DNA from: Tetrahymena elliotti 4EA | Taxonomy: Eukaryota; Ciliophora; Oligohymenophorea; Hymenostomatida; Tetrahymenidae | Length of the DNA: 64,000 bases | Direction: 5' to 3' | NCBI GenBank assembly: GCA_000231825.2 | Contig: JH720327.1 | Span: 208,937-272,936 of the forward strand | Shown: positions 3,919 through 45,734 of the stretch, piece by piece | Numbering within the stretch: the first letter of the stretch is position 1 | Layout: every line of letters begins with the position of its first letter | The notes under the pieces: generated by a model | Database searches by the model: none | The model's input: the letters and a program-made list of their open reading frames with translations, nothing else | What the model was told of the DNA's origin: nothing | Translations under genes and position numbers: made by a program

Positions 3919-6900
3919 TCATTCAAAATCAAAAGTATATTTGACATACCTTATACTAGAAAATGGCCTAGGATGAATAAATCTAATTAGGTAATTATAA
4001 AATAATTTTGTTATTGAAATCATTAAACATAAGAAATGCTCTGGTAATCCATGCTTTGTGCACTCGAAGTAATCGTGAAAGTAGTGCATCAATAAAATGA
4101 AAAATCCTAGAATGAACATGACAGATACAAAAAGGAAAAATTTTCTTTTAATATCTCTAAAGACACTAATCTTAGAATAATGAAGACTACTACTACTTAA
4201 TATGTTGAAAAGTTATAAGAAAACAAGGCAATTAAAGCAAAGTGAATATCTAAATCTAATGTTTTATTTGTTAATATTGTTGATTTCTTCTTTACTCAAG
4301 TTACTTTGATTATCTGGATTATTTCTAATGTATTTATCTATTGAAGAAGAATCAATTCTAAATATTTAATTTTACATGTTAAATATTAATTCTAAATCTC
4401 CAAAAAGCAACAAAGATAAAGCACATATTTAATAAAGTGTTTCAAAAATAATATTTCTCCACATAACAGGTTTAATAATGTACTCCTTTCTTCTTATTGG
4501 AGGAATTGAAAGCAAATGCTAAGAAGGATATTCTCTTGCTAGAGCATGTGCAGCAAATTCATCAACAAGAACATTCACAAGTAAAAACTAAGCTGCATTA
4601 AACAAATGTCTTTCCCAAACTATAACATTAAGAATTAGTAGCAAAATGATAATCTAACTCTAAGATATAATCAATTAAAAGTATTTTCTTACAAACTCGT
4701 AAATATTTCTACCCCAAAGAATTGCAGGAATGATAGAAGTAAAACTATCATTTTTCAAAATAATCTAAGCAGCCTTTTAATTTAATTAAAAACATTATTT
4801 AAGTAATACATCATTGAATTATAATATTATATTACTTATTTAACAACTTCATTACCACTTTATCCAAGTCCAATTCCTACTTAAGCCTAATTAAAAAATA
4901 ATAAAATTAATGATAAAACTTAACCAATTTAATTTACCTTATTTATAATTTTGATATCATCAGTGTCATCTCCTGTGACAGCAACAACAAACTTTAATTG
5001 TCTGATTGATAATAAGGAATAAATAATATTATTTATTGAAAAAATATTTAATATTTTTATTTACATTAAACCTGTAACTAACTAATCCTTTTCAGCTGAT
5101 CTTCCTTTTGATATCATTCTCAATTCTTTTATGTGCTTTTAGAATTAGTCTATTCCTCTTAATCTCTATATAGTTTATGATCTACCTGATTGAGACTAGA
5201 ATGTTTCTATTCCTTCCACAATTTTCTTAAATTAATCGCCATCCAAAACAGCCATATTAGAAGTTTATATATCAAAATTATTAGGCAACAAACCTATTGT
5301 TAAATTAAATGCTGAGTTAAATTTGAATTTAAATTTAAAATACCTATAAATTTAGCGGTGCAAACAGCTGATTCTTTGTTATCTCCTGTGAGAGCTCTTA
5401 CTGTTATACTGGCATTATTACATGTATTTAAGCATTCTGGCATATCTAATCTAAATGGATCTCTAATACAGACTATTCCTATAAAAACTAAATCTTAATT
5501 TATTTGCTCTTCACTATTATTATTTTAAAAATTATCCAAATTAAACACAAATTAAATAAATTTTATATTTTACGCATAGATTTGAGTTGGGTCATATTCA
5601 ATATCCTTGTATGCAAAGAATATCAACTTTAATGTTTCTTTTATTATAATATGTATATTTTTGAATAAAAAGAATAAATAGTTATGTTTTTTTACCTTTT
5701 GCTCCATATTGGGTAATTCTGTCTTAGATTAACTGCTTGATAGATGAATGCATATCAGATGGCCTTCCTTCTATGTTAGTAAATCTGCTGCATTTATCAA
5801 GAAGCACATCTGGAGAACCTTTTAAATAGCATCTGAGTGTGCTTTGATTTTTTTAGAAAACAGTAATCATTCTCTTTTTGCTAGTGTTAAAGTTGTGAAC
5901 TTTTTTAATTTTGCTTTGGATTCTATACTTTTCATAATCATAGCCACATTTTAATGCAAATTCTAATAAAGCTGTTTCAACAGTTGTGTTATGAGCTTCT
6001 TAGCCAAGTTATTCTTTTTACAAAACACCTACAGAGTTGATGCAAATATTTTCAAAGAGAAGTTATTCTATTTTTCTATTTTATCCAATAAAATCCCTTT
6101 CTTTTTTCTTTTCACTCACATTTATATTGTCTTTCTTTTTTTCTGTCTCTTTATAAGTTTACAATAAGTCATCAACAGTTTATTCTTAATTTGTATAAAC
6201 TTTCTCAACCCTATTTTTGTTTTCAGTTACACAGCCAGTCTTATCTGTGACTATACTATCAACATATCCCATCCACTATTTAAAAAGAATTATATTAACT
6301 AATAATAATATTTAATTTTACTTCTAAGGCAGAGAGATCTTTAATGATAACTTCTTATGTCTCTAATTATTTGACTGAATAAGAAAGATAAGTATCTAAT
6401 GCTTAAGTTAATCCTTCAGGCATGAGCAAAAAAGAAAGAGCAAGAATCATTTGTATTAATTGTAATAAATCACAAATCGTTTGTAAAGTGAATATTTGTT
6501 TATTATAATGAGCATCCCAAAAGTATTCAAACATAATAAATAAAATAATTAATGTTGAAGAATTTGTACTGCTGCTACCTATTTTAGATTAAATTTAATT
6601 CAATTTGTCAGAAAGAGGATTCTTAAAAATAGAATCTTAGTTCTTTTTTTATACTCTATCTAATATCGTGTTATTTCCAACACAACAAACAATCATTTTT
6701 CCCTGTATTATTTTAAAAATATTATTAAATATTTGTTGATTAAAATAAATGAGCTTACTTGCCCAACCATAATTTAAGTTCCTGAGTAAATGAAACAATC
6801 TACATAATATGAATCTCTATCAGGTGCTTATTTGGAAGCATTTTCTCTGCCACTAATAAGTGGAGATTCATTAACTTTCAAATCATACGATTCTATCAAA

Positions 6901-7914
6901 ATACCATCAACATTAATTATATCTCCTGCTTCTACCATCATGATATCACCTATTATTTCAAAAAAATCATCATCTATTCAATACATTTAACAACAAATAT
7001 ATTTATTTACCCACAACTAGCTAAGTAGATTTAATATATTGAACTTGAGTATTTCTTAATATTTTGACTTTGTATTCTGTGTTTACACATACCAAATTGT
7101 TAAATTCTTTATCAATAAACCACTATTTTAAACACTTAGTGACGAATGTAGCAACCATCATGAACATCGTACCTATTTCTATGTTTATTTCGTTGATATG
7201 AAATATTCCTATCAGATTTCCAACTTGTGTGTAAAGAATATAGGAACGTATTATAAAAAGAGCAACAACAAAGATTAAAATCAATAAATTTTTAGTCTAG
7301 TAAAAGTTCTCTCTAATGATATTCTTAAAGCTGACATTTTTACCAATGACAACCCTGTTTGCTCCATATATTTTGACTCTATTTGCAAGATCACTTTGAT
7401 TATAATTGCTTAATCCATTTCTAATGTCTACTCTCAATAAATTAGCCAGTCCATTAATATCTGCTAATTTTTAAAGATTTTTCATTTAAATATTCTATAA
7501 ACGTATTCTATCTTGGCACAATCTTATTTTTTGATAGATTTAATCATTTTAAAAATCATTTTATTAGCTATTATGTTTTCTTTTATTACTTAGCAGACTT
7601 TAGTCTAAATTAGTTCTTGTGCTAACTCCTTCCAAATCATTTCTATTATCTTAATTATCAATACAATTTTAGCAATGTCCACAAACGCATTCCATGCTAA
7701 CAATTTCAGTTAATTCCCTTGATTAATTATCTTTATCTTCATAAAAAGGAGGTAAAAACAACTCCAATATCTACTCATTTTTTAACGATAATTGGCATTT
7801 AGGGTTCACTATTTTTTTTTACTAAAAAAGAGGCTTTCTATCCTTTTTAGGAATAACAGTGGGTTTTTGATCAAATTATGTTTCTAAAAGAGTGAATCTA
7901 AGAGAGCTAGTCAT
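3919..7914 (-). CDS. P2B-type (PMCA-like) P-type ATPase with altered catalytic motifs
   Basis: The order of segments is that of plasma-membrane Ca2+ ATPases. An N-terminal block (DINGLANLLRVDIRNGLS, then NQSDLANRVKIYGANR) is followed by helices and the A-domain stretch DGILIESYDLKVNESPL. Next come TDKTGCVTEN (phosphorylation Asp kept), GIVCIRDPFRLDMPE, VRALTGDNKESA, the hinge and KNDSFTSIIPAILWGRN. M6 follows with LLVNVLVDEFAAHALA, then the last helices. Several catalytic motifs depart from consensus. The A-domain TGES site reads SGRE, the hinge TGDGTNDAP reads TGDDTDDIK, and DKTGTLT reads DKTGCVT. The start at 7914 is the first ATG after an in-frame TGA, and the stop TGA is at 3919-3921. Several short introns interrupt the gene. 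It is P2B by architecture. Whether it still pumps Ca2+ is doubtful, so it may be a pseudo-transporter or a diverged paralogue. Confidence 0.85.
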
Positions 7915-8414
7915 GCAAACTTATACTTTCTATATTTATATTCAATAAATGTCTTATAATATCTTCTAGACTCTTAACTTTGTTTCTTAGAATTCCCTTA
8001 TCAAATGTAAGTAAGTATGAATGATTTTTGATAGTGTTGCTTGCTTTAAATAATTATAAAAGCAGTCGTTTTATGTTCAAAATAAATAAATAGAATCTCT
8101 ATGTATGTCTTATTAATCTAGAATTGATAAATACTAAGAACAAAATAAAATTATAAAGGATTATAAAAATTTGAATATTTTAATATCAAATATGATGAAA
8201 ATAAAAAATAGAAAATGAAATTCAATGAAAAAAATAAAAAATCTATCATAACAAAATTAAAATAGAATTTTTGTTTTTAATTTCAAAGATTTATTTTATG
8301 ATTCCAGTTGATAAAAAATTTTAATTAAATGATTAATTATTTGTGCAAATTAATTTGTTCATGAATATCCTACTTTACTGGTATCTGAGTATTTTCTCTT
8401 AAAAGAACTCAGAA

Positions 8415-13200: not shown

Positions 13201-16200
13201 AGAAGATATCCAGAAAAAGCTTGAAGAAACAAGCAGAGAAAAATTGCTTATCGAAAGAAAGAGCCAAGCTGTTTTGAATGAAAACCAAGGATTCTAGCAA
13301 ACTCTCAATTCTCTTTAAAAAGAGTTGAAGGTAATTTTCATTTATTTAGTTTTTGATAAGAGACAGCAATGTTGAATAATAATAGTTAAAGGAGAATTTT
13401 ATATTGATTTTTTTATTAATTTAAATGAAAGTTTGCAATTAAGGAAAGAGATGCCATTAAGAATGAAACAGCTTCTCTGAGAAATAAACTTGCAAAGAAA
13501 GTTGAATTGTTAGAGAAGATAAAAACCAAATTTGGTTATTAAGAAGAAGAAGATTAAGAAGAGGAGGAATAGGAAGATCCTAAGTTGATGCATCAACACA
13601 ACAGAGAAATTAGGGATCTTTTGACTCAAATTGATTAATTAAAGGAAGAAAAAGAAGAATTGTTATAATAAGTTAAAGATAAGCAATCAAAATTAGATGA
13701 ATTACAAACAGATTCAAATATGTAGAAAATGGAAGAGGAATTTGATAATGAAAATTCTAATAAAACTGAATTATAAGAATAAATTGATAATTTAGTCAAG
13801 TAAAAATCCAGAGTTGAAATTGAAAATAATTATTTCAAGGATTCATACAAGAATGTTGAAAAGGAATTTAAGAAATCAGTTAAGCAAAACGATGAATTGA
13901 AGTAAAAATTATTTTTGTTTTTGTTAGTTCTTTTGTAATTTTAATATTTATTTTAAAGGAGAAAGTTAGCTGAAGCTGAATAGAAAATTACTGAGTTAGA
14001 AAAGAAAGTACCTAAAGAAGATTTAGAAGAAGGAGAAGAAGGTTAATAGTAAAATGATAGTGATGATAAATAAGCTCAAATAGATAATTTGAAATAACAA
14101 CTTGAAAAAGCTTAAAATGAAAATAAAAATTTGAAGCAAGAACTTGGCAACATCACAGAAAGCAATAAAGATCTTTAAAAAGCTATGGAAGATGCAAGAG
14201 AAGAACAGCAAATCAAGAGACTTGAAATTGAATATGATAATCAACCAGATGTAGATAAATTAGAAAAAGCCAAGTCTATGTTCATTTAAGAAAAACTCGT
14301 TTTAGAAACTGAGAAAGAAGAAATTGCTAATCAGTTGAATCAAAAACTATCTGAATTAGATAGTCTATAAAAATCCTCACAATAAATTGTTCTTGAAAAC
14401 AATGGATTAAAATCTAGCTTCAAATCTTTTGAAAAAGAATTTAAGGTATTTCATTATTTTTGAATAATGAAATTAAAAAGACATTTTTTTTCATTATTTT
14501 TTTAAATAAAACCTTAATTTAAAAATAATCATTCATTCACTCTTTTCATTATTTATTTAACTATTAAAAAGCGCACTGTTAAGGAAAATGATGAGCTCAA
14601 GAAGACATTCAAAAAAATAGAAAGTGAAAATCAAAAAATGAAGGATAAAATAGTGATGTACAAGGAATAATTAGGTATTGTTGATAGTCCTTCTGAAGAT
14701 TAAGAAGAAGACTTGAGTCCATAATAAAACTAGTAGTCTCCTTTGAAATAGAGCAAACACTCAGATCAAGAATATAGTGAGTTACAAGATAAATATAATT
14801 AAATGATTAAGGAATTTGAAGAATTTAAAAAAGAACATGAAATGCAAATTATGGAATTCTAAGAAAAAGAAGTTTATTTGTAGAAAACTAAAACTGAAAT
14901 TGAATAAATTGAATAGGAGAAATCTGATTTAGAGAGAAAAGCAAATAGCTTATCTTAGGAACAATCCACTTAGAAATAATTCTATAATACTCTTGAAAAG
15001 CAATTTAAAAAATCAGTTAAAGAAATTGATACACTTAGAAAAGACAATGAAAAATTGGGTAAATTTCTTTAAAAATGATTTCATCTTTTTTTAATTTTTC
15101 TTTTAGTTAAATACAAGGAGAGATTAACTGAGCTTGTTTCATAGGTTGTTAAAAAGCAAGATTCTCTTGATGAATCAAATGAAGAGGAAGAAGATAAGTT
15201 ACTTACAGTTAATCCTTTAGTTGAATTAAATAGATAAAAGGCTATGTTAGAACAAAAGAATCAATATTTATCAGAATAACTTGAAGAATTATCTAAATAA
15301 GATAATCCAAATCCCCCCGTTTAGAATTAATAAGATAGAGGTGATGATCAAGATGTTTCAGAGTTAAGAGAATAGCTATCCAATGAGTAAAATGAAAATA
15401 AATAGCTCAAAATATAAATTTAGACTATCGAAAACTAATATCAACAATCAGATAGTGAATAGAAGGAAAAGATCGCTGAATTAGAAACTCAAATTTAAGA
15501 AATTAAAATTAAATTACAAGAAAAAGACTAGAAAGTTAATGAGAAAGAAAAGAAACTCAATGAACTTTTGTCTCAACTTGATCAATAAAATCAAGAAATA
15601 AAGAAACAATATGCCTTTGTTCAATAAAGTCAACAAAATAACAAAGAATTAACTAAAAAGAATCAAGAAATTGAAGAATTATAATTGCAAGTTAAAGATC
15701 TTATTCTTGATAACAAGATAGTTGAACAATACAAATAACAAAATGAGATGTTGAAAAATAAATGTGAAATTCTAGAAAGCAGTTTATCTGAAATTCAAGA
15801 AAAGAAAAATTAACTAATAAACAAGATTAAAGACAAGGAAAGCAAAATAGAAGTTGAGTTGAATTAGATTAAATAAGTTAATTAATCACTTGCCTAATAA
15901 AACGAGATGCTTAAAAAAGACAGAATTAACATGCTTGTTGAGTTAGAATAAGCTATTCAATTATAAAATGTTGACAATAGATAACAATTTATCTCCGCTT
16001 CTGCATCTAAATTGGCATCTCCTAATAGTCTCAAGAATCCTAAATCCCTTACTGAAATTTAAAATGAAAATCAAGCCCGAATTCAAGATAAAATAAATGA
16101 ATATCAACAAAAGGTTTATGAAGAAGTTTACAACTAGCAAGATGATGACTTGAATGAAAGTACTAAAATTTCTTTTTTTTTGCTTACTTTATTTTTATTT

Positions 16201-17997
16201 TTTATTTTATATCAAGATTATCCACTCCCTTCTGAAGGCAGTGATGGTTATGGCAAGAAACTCTCTAAGTTAGAAGATGAATTCCATGATTAAATATAAG
16301 CATTAAAGCAAATAATTAAGAGCAAAGAACAAGAAATTCTACAATTAAAATTAAACAAAGAAGAAAAAAATTTAGAAGTAACTCCTAGAGATAAAAAAAT
16401 GTTAAGTGACATTTCACCTTAACGTAAAACTGGATTCAAGTTAACTTCTGGATCAAATCAATAGGTAAAACTATCTTCAAAAAATTCATAATTTAATTCA
16501 AATAAAAATTATAAAAAGATTACTGAATACCCTACTGATAGAAGAACAAAAAATCATAGTGCAAATATGCTTTATTATTAAAGTATTTAGTCTATTCAAA
16601 ATAATTAAGGAGATAGTTAATCGAAATTACTCGGAAGCACTCAATAATCATTCTAAATCTAATCTCCTACAGGTGGTGCTAGTAATTTTAACTCTTAAGA
16701 TATGATACTTGAAAGAAATAGAAAATCTATGCCTTAGGCAATAGGAGTAGGAAATCTACAAAGCGCAGGTGGTAACATCTCATAAATTTCTAATATAAAT
16801 AGCAGTATTTCTAGTGCAAATAACATCCAAAATAGTTAAAACAATAATAACAATTTCTTAGATTAAATGTACCTAAAGTGTATAGAAAGATCAAAGAATC
16901 TTCTTCATAAGAATGAAAACTTACTTAAATCTTTAAAGAGTGCTAATGCTAAACAACAACACTAACTTAATTTGAATGCTGCGGTTTCAATCATGAGCAA
17001 TCAAGCATAAATTCAATCTAACCAAAATCAAATACAACTTTAAGCTGCTACTTCAGCTCCTCAATCATTTGGATAAAATTACCTTCAAAATCAATAATAA
17101 ATGGTGATATCTCCTTCATAATCAACTCATAACTTTAATGCAGTTCTAGCTCAATCATCGCTATTAGACCCATCTATGTAATATTACCAAAAAAGCCCAC
17201 ATTCAAGCAGTCCTCAAGAACACTACTTTAACACTAAAACTTATGGACAAATAGGATCTGCTCAATAGTAAAATTACCTTCCAGTCTAACCATAATAATT
17301 GATGTCTTCTAAGCGCTCACAGACAGCAACAACTAGCCCAAATATAGGATCTACTTCAAGTATTTCTCCAATAGCTCCTCTCAAGTTAGATTATTCAACA
17401 AAATAAAATCAAACTTAATCAGGATAATTTAACGCTATTAAAAATAGTTCCAACAATAACAGCAACTCCAAGAAAGTAACTGGTAGTGATAAAAGCAATT
17501 CAAATATTAATAGCAATCCTAACGCTAACTAGCTTCCTAGATATGAAGGTGAGAGATTAAGCAATCTCAGACATGGAACTGGTTGCTATTACTACTAAAA
17601 TGGGGAGACTTACGAAGGTGAGTGGAAGTCAGATAAGAGGCATGGATATGGAATCTTAAAAGATGAGCATGGTATTGATATATATAATGGTGAATGGGAG
17701 TATGATATGTATCACGGTTCTGGTCGTCTCAGAAACCGCTTTGTTTCTTTCACTAATACAGCATTTGATTACCGTAATTTTGAAACTCTCTCCAAGTCAT
17801 GGTAGTTCTATAGCGGTGAATTTAAAAATAATTTAATGCATGGCCAAGGAACTCTCATACTCTGCAACAATGATAAATTTGTTGGTCACTTCCAAGATGG
17901 CAAAGTCCATGGAGAAGGTATCTATCACACAAGCAACGGTGAAATCATATCAGGAGTTTGGTAAAACAATCGCTACTACATATCCAAACATTTTTGA
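10281..17997 (+). CDS. Very long coiled-coil protein with C-terminal MORN repeats
   Basis: After a polar N-terminal part (MRERVNNFIYNITEEQDD), the protein is mostly Glu/Lys/Gln-rich heptad coiled coil from about 11.25 kb to 16.4 kb. An Asn/Ser/Gln-rich low-complexity linker follows to about 17.5 kb. The C-terminus has several MORN repeats (RHGTGCYYYQNGETYEGEW, KRHGYGILKDEHG, MYHGSGRL, YSGEFKNNLMHGQGTL, GHFQDGKVHGEGIY). MORN repeats commonly contact membranes or scaffold proteins, so a cortical or cytoskeletal role is inferred. Introns read in phase are 11806-11856, 12367-12425, 12844-12895, 13331-13443, 13902-13958, 14446-14583, 15059-15106 and 16160-16216. Joins between 10.85 and 11.25 kb are not settled. 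The start at 10281 is the first ATG after an in-frame TGA, but upstream exons are possible. The stop TGA is at 17995-17997. Confidence 0.8.
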
Positions 17998-40969: not shown

Positions 40970-41636
40970 ATGTCAGTCATGCCAAAAAATTCTTAATTAA
41001 AAAAGAAATATGAAACACTTACTGAAGAATAGGTAAATCTAAAAAGCTAATATAAAGAAAAATTATAAAATTCAAATCAACAATCATAGGTAGACTAAAA
41101 AAAATAATAGGAAAAGTTATTAGAAAATTCCAGTTAATATATTAAAATAGAGTCAATAAAAATTAGAAAAAGATTTAAATCTCAAAAGCTAATATGAAGA
41201 AAAAATAGAAAAGGGCAATCAAGAAATCAATAAACTAAAATTCGAAAATTCTAATTAAAAAAAATAATAGGAAAAATAATTAGAAGATTACAACTAAGCT
41301 AGCAATTAATTGAGATAAGAAATCACTATATTAAAATAGAGTCAATATAAATTAGAAAAAGATTTACAAGAATAGGTAAGTTAAAAAAAATAATAGGAAA
41401 AATTATCAGAAGAGTCGAATGAAGCAAACAATTAATTGAGATAAAAAATCTCTAAATTAAAGTAAAGTTAAAATAAATAGGTATTTGATTAATTAATATA
41501 AGAATTTTGAATAAATTTAAATAATTTTTAGGGTGTTGAGTAAAAGCAAGTAAACCAAAATATTTAACCAACTAAATATTTTAAGATTAAAAAAACTGTT
41601 AATCTAATTAGTAAAGTTAGTAGAAATAAAATTTGA
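40970..41636 (+). CDS. Short repetitive coiled-coil frame with a frame slip
   Basis: An ATG at 40970 starts MSVMPKNSQLKKKYETLTEE and continues as Lys/Glu/Gln-rich coiled coil. Three related segments, near 41096, 41256 and 41380, each contain an A run followed by taataggaaaa (Q/K-rich, then EKLLE-like). Near 41140-41150 the first frame gives way by one base to a second frame that carries the same repeat (KQSQYKLEKDLQ type) onward. No intron large enough explains the change. A likely intron at about 41480-41531 (gtatttg...tttttag) then leads to GVEQKQVNQNIQPTKYFK and a TGA at 41634-41636. It could be a degenerate gene, a repeat-unit misassembly, or the 5' part of the micro-exon transcript downstream. 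No family was recognised. Confidence 0.4.
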
Positions 41637-41749
41637 ATCTCTAAACTTCAAAGAAGTAATAAGTTTAATTAAATAATATGAAAGTTTATATAGATTTAAC
41701 TACTTTTACTTTAATTTTATATTAAAATAATATTCATATTCCAAAATAG

Positions 41750-43553
41750 ATAGTAGTTTTTTCATATTCTTGAAGGATTTTAGATTGAAAGATGAATGCT
41801 TAATTTTTTCATATTAAAAATAGGTGTAATTAATTAATGTTCTTGAAGAAATTTAGATTGAAATTGCATAATGAATTTATTTTCATGCAAAAATAGGATG
41901 TAATCTTAAAAGAAAAAATTTTGAAATAAAATTTAAATGGAATGAAAATAGATAGTAACTTATGACTTAAATAGATTTATTTTAGGTAAATTAAAAATAT
42001 TATAGAAAAAAGTGAAAAGTGAGTAAGGATTTTACAAAGAATAAGGAAATAACTAATTTAGAAAATCAAACTTAAAAAAAATTAAGTGAGTAATAAATTT
42101 TAATAATATTTTATTGGATTTCCAAAATTACAAATAATTAGAGTGTATTTTTGTTGTATTAAAATTCTAAAATTAATTAAAATTTTTTTTCATAAAATAG
42201 CTCTTAATATTTTTGTACAATAAGAAATAGATGAATTCATAGATTATTAAAAATAGATTGTAACCAATTAATTAAAAATAGAGGGTAATCTATTAGACTA
42301 TGATTAAATTAATATTGAAAGAATTAGAAGAATAAAAAAATAATATTTTAATTAAAATAGCATGTAAATTTTATTTAGATCAAAGTATTTTTTGATTTTT
42401 ATCTATTCTTAAAATAAAAATAGGAAGTAATTTAAATTTATAAATGATTTTTTATGCTTGAATATGATTGAGTTATTTTTCCAATTATAATAGAATGTAA
42501 ATTAAATACTAAAAACAAACTAAAATTTAAAGACATTTATTTTATTTTTTAAATAGCATGTAATATTTTATCTTTTAAAACTCAAAAATGATTAGTTTCA
42601 TTTTCAAATTAAAATAGTCCATTTTATTATTTTTGAAAATGAATGTTTTCTTAAATAATTATCATCCTCTAAATAGTTGGATGTAATATTATCTAATAAT
42701 TGAAAATGGAAAAATATCTTATTATTGAAAAATAGAACAAAGTAATATTTTTCAGTAATTTTATTAAATTAATTTATATTTAATTTAAACATAGAGGAGT
42801 AATATTTTAAAATTCTGCAAAAAAAGATATTGAAATATAAATCAAAAAAAGAAAGTCAAAATATAAATATATATATATATATATTGAGATAATGCATTTA
42901 TACTAATAAAAGTTGGACATAATATTTTAAGTAATAAGATAATTCAGAACAAAAATTAATTTGAAAATAGCTTGTAATTAAATTTTGTAATAATTTATTT
43001 AGCTTTAAAGAATGTTTAATTTATTTTAAGTCAAAATAGAAATCAAAATTTTTCAATCAAAATGTATATTTCTTGTTACAATCAACAAACAGACATATGA
43101 AAAATCATATTTTTAGTTGAAAGGATTTCAGTAAAAATATATCAAATGTTTTACCTATATTTCCCTAAAACTTAAACAGCGAGTAAAAATTTATTTATTT
43201 GAGTTTTGACATTTTACTTCATAACTTAATATTAACGTAAAATATGAATTTTGAAGAGATTAATTACAGATTTAATCTTAAATCTCCTTTAATAATCTTA
43301 AAAGCGAGTGTTAAATAGATTGATATTTTCAAAATAATACAATCATTTTATTAATAATAAAATAGCTGTAAAAATTATTTGTTTGACAAAAAATTCTCCA
43401 AATTAAAAAAATTAGCTTGTAAATATATTAAATTGAAAAAACTTTTCCTAAAGATAATTAATATTACATATTTTTAATTAAATGGCTGGTAAATTGTTTT
43501 GAAATAATAAAGAATATTATCAACTCATTTATCATCAAATAGAGAAACAGAGA
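41750..43553 (+). other. Ladder of putative single-codon micro-exons
   Basis: Acceptor-like (n)aaatag and donor-like gtaat/gtaaa sequences alternate, mostly 55-80 nt apart, with only a few bases between acceptor and donor. Three-base units: ATA 41750, GAT 41897, ATA 41952, AGT 42142, ATT 42257, AGG 42282, CAT 42361, GAA 42424, AAT 42494, CAT 42557, CTT 42971, CGA 43180, CGA 43305, CTT 43416, AGA 43551 (or 11 nt from 43543). Six-base units: TTGGAT 42677, AACAAA 42736. Other lengths: GT 41824, AGGA 42795, CT 43366, and longer pieces at 42006-42022, 42062-42089, 42201-42214 and 43040-43063. The sequences between units do not align with each other except at their ends, as expected for independent introns and unlike a satellite. 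Ends of the transcript, its frame and its product cannot be determined from sequence alone. Confidence 0.45.
42867..42884. repeat. (AT)n microsatellite
   Basis: This is a run of nine AT dinucleotides. It lies in the longest gap between candidate micro-exons (42799-42970), where the acceptor/donor periodicity is interrupted. Confidence 0.9.
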
Positions 43554-45734
43554 GTAAAATTTTACAATTAATAATCTTAATTTTATTTTTTAAATCTTTA
43601 TAAAAACATTTTTTTCTATTCTATATTCAATTTTTCAAAAAAAAAAAAATTACAGAGATACATATTTAAAATTAAAAAAATTTATTAATTATAGCCAGTT
43701 CATCCTTGATGTGTGTACTGAAATCAATTTATTATATTGATTTAAACCACTTTCCAGAAAGACATTAACATACATGAATAGAACCAAAAGAAGAAACTTA
43801 AAAAAAATAAGTTATAATATATAAATATATATTATTCCTTCATGCTATTCTTAATTTATATTTGTAAACTTAATTTTATTCGTAATTTTTTTTTAAATCT
43901 AAAAAACAAATGGCATTCATATATACTATTGAGTTTAATTTCAAATTTACTTAAAAAATTTATGAACTGTTAAAATGTTAAGTTTTTAAATTAATTTTCA
44001 CTTTTTTTATTTAAACTGAGTTAATTTTATTTTAAAGAATCTGTTTAAAAACTAGTTAAATAATAAACAAGATGTAATATTAGAAAATCTTTTATTTCTT
44101 CATAATTTGGATTGCTACTATAAAAATTTACTTTTTCTTGTTTGTAAAAGCATGATACTAACTTTAAAGATTTCGAAGATGATTTAGAATAAATTTTTTT
44201 TACAAATAATTAAGTGAATTCATGAATAATAGCAAATTATTAAGCATAAAAAAAGTGATACTTAAATAAAATATTAGTTTTAAAAAAAATTACAAATAAT
44301 GTTTAGAAAATAAAGAAAAAAAAACAATCCTAATAAAATTTTATTTTAACAAAAAGAGGTTATTATTACAAAGTTTCAGAAACTAAAAATGTTTTTAAAT
44401 TATTTATTTTGTAAAACTTCTTTAAAATTTTATGGAATTTTATTAATTTGTTTAATGTTAATACATATAAATCAGTATAACATNNNNNNNNNNNNNNNNN
44501 NNNNNNNNNNNNNNNNNNNNNNNNNNNNNNNNNNNNNNNNNNNNNNNNNNNNNNNNNNNNNNNNNNNNNNNNNNNNNNNNNNNATTATTAATTTTTTAAT
44601 AAAATTATTTTTTTAACTGTGTTACCTTTTATTAAAAATAATATTGTCAAATTTCTTACATATTCATATAGACTGTAAAAAGTTATGTATGTACGTCGAA
44701 CTTGACACAGAATATAAACCACTTACGAAAACAAATAAAATTTTTATAATAGTTTTTCAATAATTTGAATGTTCTTTTGAATTTCTTAAGATGGGAGTCA
44801 TAAACTGATTTCTAAACTTTGAGTGTACTTTTATATAGAGTAATTAACATATACTCATAGCAAATATAATGGACACATGATTTAAATAACATTAAATCGA
44901 CATAAGTAATTTAAAATATAAAAAACCAGCTAATTCAAAATAAAATTTTAAAAATCAGATTTTACATTCAAAGTATTTCTTAAATAAATAAAAGTAATAC
45001 ATAAATAATATTTGTTTATTTTTTAGTAATAAAATATATTAAGATAATCAAAACTAAATTAAAAATGATCAACTTTTAAAAATATTTCTCGATTAGCAAT
45101 AAAAATTGGACACGATAATTTTTCTTTTATCATTAAAATTCTTCAATGTATTTGTTAAAAATTTAATAATACAAGTATAAATATCATTGATTTATTTCAT
45201 ATTAATATTTCATTTTTGTATTGACTTATATTTTATTTAATTAAGGAAATTATTATTCCAATAAAATTTGAGAAAGACTTTTTATTACTATTTATCTTGG
45301 AAATTTGGACAATAAATTAAATCTAGATTATTATATTATTTGAAGTTAAGTTTATTTCAAGTAAAATTTTTTCTAAGAATATAAATTACTTAAAAGAATG
45401 TTTTTGTTGGTTGTAATATTTTAGATAAATTAAATTCTGGCATTTTTATTTTAAGACTTGTAAGCAAAGAAATATTAACCAATTTCTCATATTTAATTAA
45501 TTCTGGTAAATTTTGTCCAAAATTTGTAATAATTAATATCGTAGAAAAAAAAAGGAAAGAAAATCAAACTCATTACAACCAAAATTAATTAAATTATAAT
45601 CAATTTTATACAAATTTTTATTATGATTTTAGTCTATATTCTGATAGGTGAATCATATAAATTAGGTATTTTCATCTATGTTTTCATAATAACATTTTAT
45701 GTAAAAATCAATTAATAAAACAACAAATCAAATA
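43554..45734. other. Gene-poor AT-rich region with assembly gap
   Basis: No convincing protein frame was found. A few isolated acceptor/donor-like pairs persist, such as attatag before 43695-43710 with donor gtgtgt, tttccag at 43757, and a 4-base unit near 45437. Their regularity is lost. Several ttgga(c/t)-like motifs resembling the TTGGAT micro-exon context recur at about 45106, 45305 and 45407. The nucleoside transporter starts at the right end. Confidence 0.5.
44484..44583. other. Assembly gap (100 N)
   Basis: Exactly 100 ambiguous bases are present, the conventional filler for a gap of unknown size. Any frame drawn across it is artificial. True sequence, including further micro-exons or repeats, may be missing here. 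Confidence 0.98.

Follow-up and report, generated by a model that had tools for sequence, protein, structure and literature searches.

Predicted ladders of three-nucleotide exons in a Tetrahymena elliotti gene family, with one copy that is probably decaying

The window analysed here, a stretch of 64,000 nucleotides from the genome of Tetrahymena elliotti 4EA, carries on its plus strand a degenerate ladder of micro-exons (41750-43553). This ladder very probably belongs to a decaying member of a Tetrahymena gene family whose C-terminal domain of ~80 residues would be encoded by ~60-80 consecutive micro-exons separated by introns of ~60 nt. The micro-exons are predicted to be mostly 3 nt long (some 6, 9 or 12 nt), with the ladder introns in phase 2, and the proposed gene order is a protein kinase domain (in the C17, C24 and C40 members), a coiled coil in ordinary exons, and then the ladder. 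In C40, ~70 predicted splicing events in ~4.9 kb of DNA would serve ~80 residues. To our knowledge such ladders, if transcripts confirm them, would be the densest intron-exon structures known.

Results

A ladder of micro units in the window

Between positions 41750 and 43553 the plus strand holds the pattern TAG-N3-GTA 11 times, where the remainder of the window would predict 0.41, and sequences generated from Markov models held on average 0.26 occurrences (order 1, maximum 2) or 0.63 (order 2, maximum 3; 300 sequences each). The related patterns AG-N3-GTAA (13 observed, 0.46 predicted by the remainder of the window) and ATAG-N3-GTAA (9 observed, 0.06 expected) behave similarly, and the minus strand of the same interval has none of the three. 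The ladder claimed by a sequence-only reading of this DNA is therefore borne out, with the units CAT at 42361, GAA at 42424, AAT at 42494, CAT at 42557 and TTGGAT at 42677 located exactly where that reading had placed them.

Units were called with a parser whose score takes in donor, acceptor and the length of the intron and which does not favor multiples of three; six ladders, among them that of the window, had served to train its model of the splice sites. In the window ladder it returned 30-31 units over 2.5 kb, of which 15 are exactly 3 nt (30 units when counted from 41654), as compared to two three-nt exons at most in any control window (168 windows, each of 2-2.5 kb, taken at 18 other loci in this genome). 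The parser finds 19 of 30 window units to be multiples of three, a lower share than the about 17 of roughly 20 given by the sequence-only reading. A scan of the window against Rfam gave no match at gathering thresholds.

Ladders across the genome

A scan of the genome (90 Mb in 134 contigs; loci are labelled by contig, such as C17 or C40, with the window on C35) retrieved 161 matches to a two-unit pattern against 16 in a reversed control, 67 matches to three successive 3-nt units against 0, and 68 matches to a variant with a TTAG acceptor against 4. The pooled places, which drew on 53 of the 100 two-unit places listed among the 161 counted and on all 67 three-unit and all 68 TTAG-variant places, form 46 clusters; 30 of these hold at least two matches, and the 16 that are based on a single match may be due to chance. 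Fifteen ladder loci were read, two of them (C122 and C17b) in part.

Five sister ladders (C17, C23, C40, C33a and C82) showed 25-34 three-nt exons among the 34-36 called in 2.5 kb, and introns in the sister ladders are ~60 nt long. When six ladders were parsed without regard to exon length, 263 of the 322 internal exons of up to 30 nt were exactly 3 nt, and the remaining 59 favored multiples of three (37, against 11 and 11 in the two other classes). In the exon lists of 10 sister ladders, curated so as to favor multiples of three, 460 of 553 exons are 3 nt long and the others 6-15 nt. Exon lengths are largely in register between paralogs, runs of 6-nt exons included.

Kinase and ladder genes are closely grouped at C3:1.77-1.79 Mb, C24:34-70 kb and C23:703-733 kb. 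The introns of C24b and C24c differ by 1.4%, indicating a recent duplication. Another locus (L033, C23:703.4-704.4 kb) consists of a kinase exon, only a few ladder units and then the 3' end typical of the family, and looks internally deleted.

Reading frame and encoded domain

Translation with code table 6, in which TGA is the sole stop, revealed a single open frame. Ten of the 15 ladders contributed curated stretches, in which the phase-2 frame has no TGA in 664 codons, as compared to 31 and 28 in the other frames; this count ended before the terminal codon and left out the window, C1m, C24c, C122 and C17b, as well as badly parsed parts of C23, C23b, C24, C33b and C3. Shuffling the exon order within the same 10-ladder set gave a mean of 7.1 TGA codons, and zero TGA in 1 of 5000 shuffles. 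Phase 0, in which each exon would hold a whole codon, is ruled out for the kinase/coiled-coil family by its 31 TGA codons. The single whole codon per exon that had been proposed therefore does not apply to the family: the introns cut codons between positions 2 and 3, so that a 3-nt exon completes one codon with its first base and opens the next codon with its other two.

The proteins encoded by the ladders are homologous across sisters (IGKVSLINGKKIY…YELF-stop), as seen in C40 (IGWIKREDIEKGDGQNMILWENYSSEKQIGRVSLINGERIYHWDY…IEYELF-stop), in C33b (IGRIKLEDHNNKKQNMTLLDKRSDKKEIGKFFLINGKKLYLYN…CEYELF-stop) and in the ending of C17 (…CEYELN-stop). The translated exon lists were followed only partly in C24 (30 exons) and C33a (52 exons); the four ladders translated to their end (C40, C24b, C33b and C17) all finish with YEL(F/N) and then a TGA that is interrupted by an intron. 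A three-exon signature for E-Y-E was found in 14 places against 0 in the control, six of them in loci outside the set that was read, and 13 of the 14 lie inside a ladder cluster or up to ~2 kb from one. A V-S-L-I signature gave 7 places against 0, three of them outside the set read; the one at C40:601 kb is beyond the known ladder clusters. In five paralog pairs the exons have a G+C content of 34-37%, and the introns of 15-16%.

Exon lengths, frame, homology, the conserved stop and the signatures thus strongly support coding micro-exons between ordinary introns in the family, as judged from the genome sequence. This upholds, at the level of the family, the coding gene suggested by the sequence-only reading, whose details probably do not hold for the copy in the window.

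A search of the ladder domain against 5.8 billion proteins found no relative (1699 candidates, all with E > 1), and a Pfam scan of three ladder proteins gave no family above cut-off and no LRR match. The protein therefore gains no outside support from these searches. A RepA match to a ladder protein (E 0.14) fell under the Pfam cut-off and was disregarded, and the best PDB match to the domain (E 0.084) was judged to be chance.

Upstream kinase and coiled coil

In C17, C24 and C40 a protein kinase domain and then a coiled coil (recognized by eye), all in ordinary exons, lie 5' of the ladder. In C17, the sole sister scanned, PF00069 was detected in two pieces (E 1.6e-10 and 4e-11), and a catalytic-loop query of 37 aa matches C24 and C40 among its 45 matches in the genome. 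The exon preceding the C17 ladder is 224 nt long, encodes coiled coil, ends in phase 2 and is in frame with the ladder.

At E < 1e-10, 31 of the 45 query matches represent kinase loci. A ladder cluster on the same strand lies within 15 kb downstream of 18 of the 31 and upstream of 3; on the opposite strand there were none. Thirteen kinase loci had no downstream ladder cluster starting within 15 kb, or 12 after one merged cluster was split (the locus at C23:713.6 kb had been scored as ladder-less as two ladders were merged), and the kinase locus at C23:703.5 kb is credited with a ladder that may be the next gene's. Several ladder loci, including the window and both C33 ladders, have no match to the kinase query on their contigs. 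Given these ladder contigs and the 13 of 31 kinase loci without a ladder, we claim the kinase domain for some members of the ladder family.

The joined C17 kinase stretch (334 aa) shares 71-79% identity with 17 annotated proteins of T. thermophila; for near-full-length matches in T. utriculariae and T. malaccensis the value is 52-54%. In the T. thermophila models P0002-P0005, P0013 and P0015 the coiled coil is shared, by eye, up to about EKNQLQIQK, after which the models stop or diverge. Since this point is close to the start of the C17 ladder, there is a hint that the T. thermophila kinase genes may have unannotated ladders.

Growth and turnover of the ladders

Within the C17 ladder 299 of 3321 intron pairs, and within the C23 ladder 142 of 2850, exceeded the 99.5% point of a shuffle null (16.6 and 14.2 expected), the related introns forming contiguous blocks. 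These mutually repeated blocks suggest that parts of the ladders grew by duplication of codon-plus-intron units. Related pairs were few in C40 (30 of 2211, 11.1 expected), C33a (13 of 1711, 8.6 expected) and C1m (5 of 300, 1.5 expected); the null was a single-base shuffle, against which the modest excess in C40 and C33a carries little meaning. The scarcity of related pairs in these two ladders rules out a simple satellite. It had been stated earlier that the intervening sequences do not align and that the array is not a satellite; the latter stands, but some intervening sequences are related, between the window and C40 and in the C17 and C23 blocks.

Micro-exons diverge more than their flanking introns in all seven paralog pairs compared, pairs that share loci and are not independent; the site-level comparison covered five of the seven. 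Between C40 and C24, 46 of 222 micro-exon sites differ (20.7%) as compared to 4.0% of intron sites (ratio 5.2, Fisher p = 2.6e-18). The probability that a G or C site differs in this pair is 0.41 in exons and 0.16 in introns, and A-T exchanges amount to 0.078 and 0.016, respectively. Across all five pairs A-T exchanges are commoner in exons, by 1.7 to 4.9 fold. In the four pairs other than C40/C24, G/C sites are about as likely to differ in exons as in introns (0.46/0.47, 0.52/0.50, 0.08/0.07 and 0.53/0.53), so that much of the exon excess there can be attributed to base composition. For C40/C24, pN is 0.20 and pS 0.25, so that both classes of site, synonymous and nonsynonymous, are elevated alike. 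An explanation by plain positive selection on the exons is tempered by both of these results. Since the micro-exon codons change at least as much as the introns, ordinary purifying selection on the amino acids seems to be weak overall, and we limit our claim to this: most residues of the predicted domain appear to turn over fast, while the frame is retained along with the splice sites and a small number of motifs.

The window copy and its apparent lesions

Directly 5' of the window ladder, a region of ordinary exons (40970-41636, plus strand) encodes, by table 6 translation, a Q/K/E-rich, internally repeated sequence that was recognized by eye as coiled coil, and whose open frame switches once at ~41.1 kb. 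The sister genes that were read upstream (C17, C24, C40 and C23) have a comparable coiled-coil stretch at the equivalent position. Internal LKQSQxKLEKDL repeats lie at 41100-41470 of the window, in the coiled-coil exon.

Within the ladder, all on the plus strand, two consecutive stretches at 41726-41863, each made of a unit and intron sequence, match one common stretch of the C40 ladder (41726-41795 with 87% and 41801-41863 with 91% identity). The best-preserved run, CAT, GAA, AAT and CAT, spans 42361-42559, with each unit in the form AG/NNN/GTAA. The 6-nt units TTGGAT and AACAAA lie 3' of it (42677-42741); 6-nt runs are also seen in the 3' half of several sister ladders. The 3' end of the ladder (CGA, CGA, a 2-nt CT, CTT, CTG and AGA; 43180-43553) was aligned to the conserved E-Y-E-L-F-stop end of the sisters, relative to which at least one unit is absent. 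Further downstream, a flanking block at 43805-43910 (plus strand) is homologous to the 3' ends of C40 (72%), C24b (76%), C23b (76%) and C33a (75%). The order of the window units, in a list partly chosen by hand, was matched equally well by 0 of 200 shuffles against C23b, 1 against C23, 2 against C33a and 5 against C40, and gave no signal against five of the 10 sister ladders, for which at least 39 of 200 shuffled orders equaled the real one. By its sequence homology, its 3' region and its unit order, uneven as the latter is, the window ladder is a member of the family.

Several positions in the window copy depart from what the sisters conserve. The unit at 41824-41825 is only 2 nt long although it aligns with a 3-nt sister unit, which breaks the frame, and a second 2-nt unit stands at 43366-43367 where sister units have 3 nt. 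At 43484-43485 GG replaces the acceptor AG in front of CTG (43486-43488), a conserved unit. The two 2-nt units interrupt the phase-2 frame that runs unbroken through the curated stretches of the 10 sister ladders. The window ladder is missing among the 14 E-Y-E places, and none of the 45 genome matches of the 37-aa catalytic-loop query lies on its contig, C35. The 2-nt units, the GG for AG, the missing unit and the missing kinase match lead us to read the window copy as decaying, probably a kinase-less paralog. A gene at 706-711 kb of C23, with a coiled coil directly 5' of its ladder, may be a better-preserved relative built in the same way. A run of 100 N at 44484-44583, probably an assembly gap, lies ~0.9 kb 3' of the window ladder.

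Discussion

Comparison with known systems

Among the matches listed in our literature search, no ciliate gene with such a micro-exon ladder was found. Tetrahymena LRR genes are arrays of 90-bp exons with >98% of introns in phase 2 (Xiong et al. 2019, PMC6564038). The ladders resemble them in their arrays of equal in-frame exons, in the phase of their introns, in the repetition of exon and intron together and in fast family turnover, but differ in that their exons are mostly 3 bp rather than 90 bp and their protein has no LRR match; the main text of that paper contains no occurrence of the terms mini-exon, 3-bp or single codon.

In aphids, bicycle genes have ~17 exons, with micro-exons that are nearly all in phase 2, and are described as rapidly evolving, and the megacycle gene uses >100 micro-exons for ~2000 aa, roughly 20 residues per exon (PMC9168663). 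Consecutive micro-exons, phase 2 and fast evolution are shared with the ladders, in which, unlike in these insect genes, there is about one residue per exon. The MEGs of Schistosoma also have short exons in runs, of 3-81 bp, but with introns of up to 5 kb and secreted products (PMC10526429), as compared to introns of ~60 nt and a kinase/coiled-coil protein in an unrelated lineage. Consecutive internal micro-exons divisible by three, which characterize MEG and bicycle genes, are found in the sister ladders; in the window this holds for 19 of 30 units. Phase-2 introns throughout the array are found in the kinase/coiled-coil family and not in C1m. According to reports of a 3-bp exon in Drosophila homothorax (PMC7392893) and a 1-nt exon in Arabidopsis (PMC4674806), the spliceosome can include exons this tiny; yet those are isolated cases, whereas a ladder would have dozens consecutively.

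Alternative explanations

Although AG and GTA are common in A+T-rich DNA, the probability that chance or a simple satellite produced the ladders is negligible: the reversed-pattern controls (67 vs 0, 161 vs 16 and 68 vs 4 genome-wide) and the 168 control windows reject chance, and the C40 and C33a introns are too seldom related for a satellite. The AG-N3-GT series might also be noncoding, a chain of decoys or recursive splice points that serves the stepwise removal of a long intron or a 3' UTR. The regular spacing at intron length and the fast change of the exons agree with this, as does the position of the stop codon inside the ladder, by which the last units would be 3' UTR. We nevertheless regard it as quite improbable, since the units that are not 3 nt long favor multiples of three (37 vs 11 and 11), a single frame is free of TGA and encodes a homologous protein with a conserved end, and exons and introns differ in G+C content in five pairs. 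That the window copy is an intact, expressed gene of single-codon exons, with lesions that are in fact unusual splice choices, would explain why its coiled-coil sequence and many good units persist and why even its odd units of 18 and 24 nt are multiples of three. Still, this is unlikely in view of its 15 three-nt units among 31 called (five sister ladders have 25-34 among 34-36), its two 2-nt units, the GG for AG, the missing unit and its absence from the E-Y-E places. A decaying copy of a coding family is the reading we prefer.

A separate question is why the codons of the family change so fast. As happens in recognition genes, they may be targeted by a local diversifying process, be it local hypermutation or strong positive selection, a possibility that we consider real though doubtful. 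It would account for the 5.2-fold exon excess in C40/C24, which is also present within each base class, for the faster exons in 7/7 pairs and for the A-T exchanges enriched in exons in 5/5; against it, composition explains much in the four other pairs, where G/C sites differ about equally, the similar pN and pS of C40/C24 do not fit plain positive selection, and paralog pairs that share loci are not independent. A bolder proposal takes the ladder as a combinatorial device. As all exons are multiples of three and all introns have the same phase, the duplication, loss or skipping of a unit is neutral to the frame; any of ~70 single-codon exons could then be skipped, and alternative splicing would allow a single gene to produce a very large number of versions of one domain, varied at the level of single residues, in a self-diversifying kinase family of recognition type. 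We think this improbable on present evidence; if it is true, each duplication or deletion of a codon together with its intron would also let evolution revise the domain one codon at a time.

Proposed mechanism and implications

Under the reading of the ladders as coding arrays, some blocks have expanded by tandem duplication of a 3-nt exon and its intron, each step adding one codon; with exons that are multiples of three and introns of one phase, neither the gain nor the loss or skipping of a unit disturbs the frame. The pre-mRNA would be spliced by intron definition, probably sequentially from the 5' side. Simultaneous binding at both ends of so short an exon is hardly feasible, and we therefore presume that joining proceeds one exon after another: each 3-nt exon would first be attached to the exon 5' of it, and only then would the following donor come into use.

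If this is correct, the ladders offer a test of the lower size limit of consecutive exons and of whether the order of splicing is fixed, and a probe of intron definition where a single exon cannot hold two spliceosomes. Duplication of a codon with its intron would be a concrete route to mass intron gain in genes. Whole protein domains could also escape standard annotation, as suggested by the T. thermophila kinase models.

A second ladder type and other features

A ladder of a different kind, C1m, was found on the minus strand at G000:C1:454.3-455.9 kb (L009), with 27 of 30 exons of 3 nt and introns of ~55 nt. Its TGA counts are 0 in phase 0 and 1 and 2 in the other phases, a weak test; it does not fit phase 2, and in phase 0 it reads KIFRDSGIRIEQGLEVLKHVEEGEK. 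Upstream of this ladder lies a cysteine-containing N-terminus, MSSYSRCDRCSEHKEKSLL, noted by eye. If C1m is an unrelated gene, ladders originated more than once.

Elsewhere in the window, the plus-strand ORF at 15079-17997 has repeats that we take, from their motif, to be MORN-like. The minus-strand ORF at 3919-7941 has a DKTG motif, presumably the one found in P-type ATPases.
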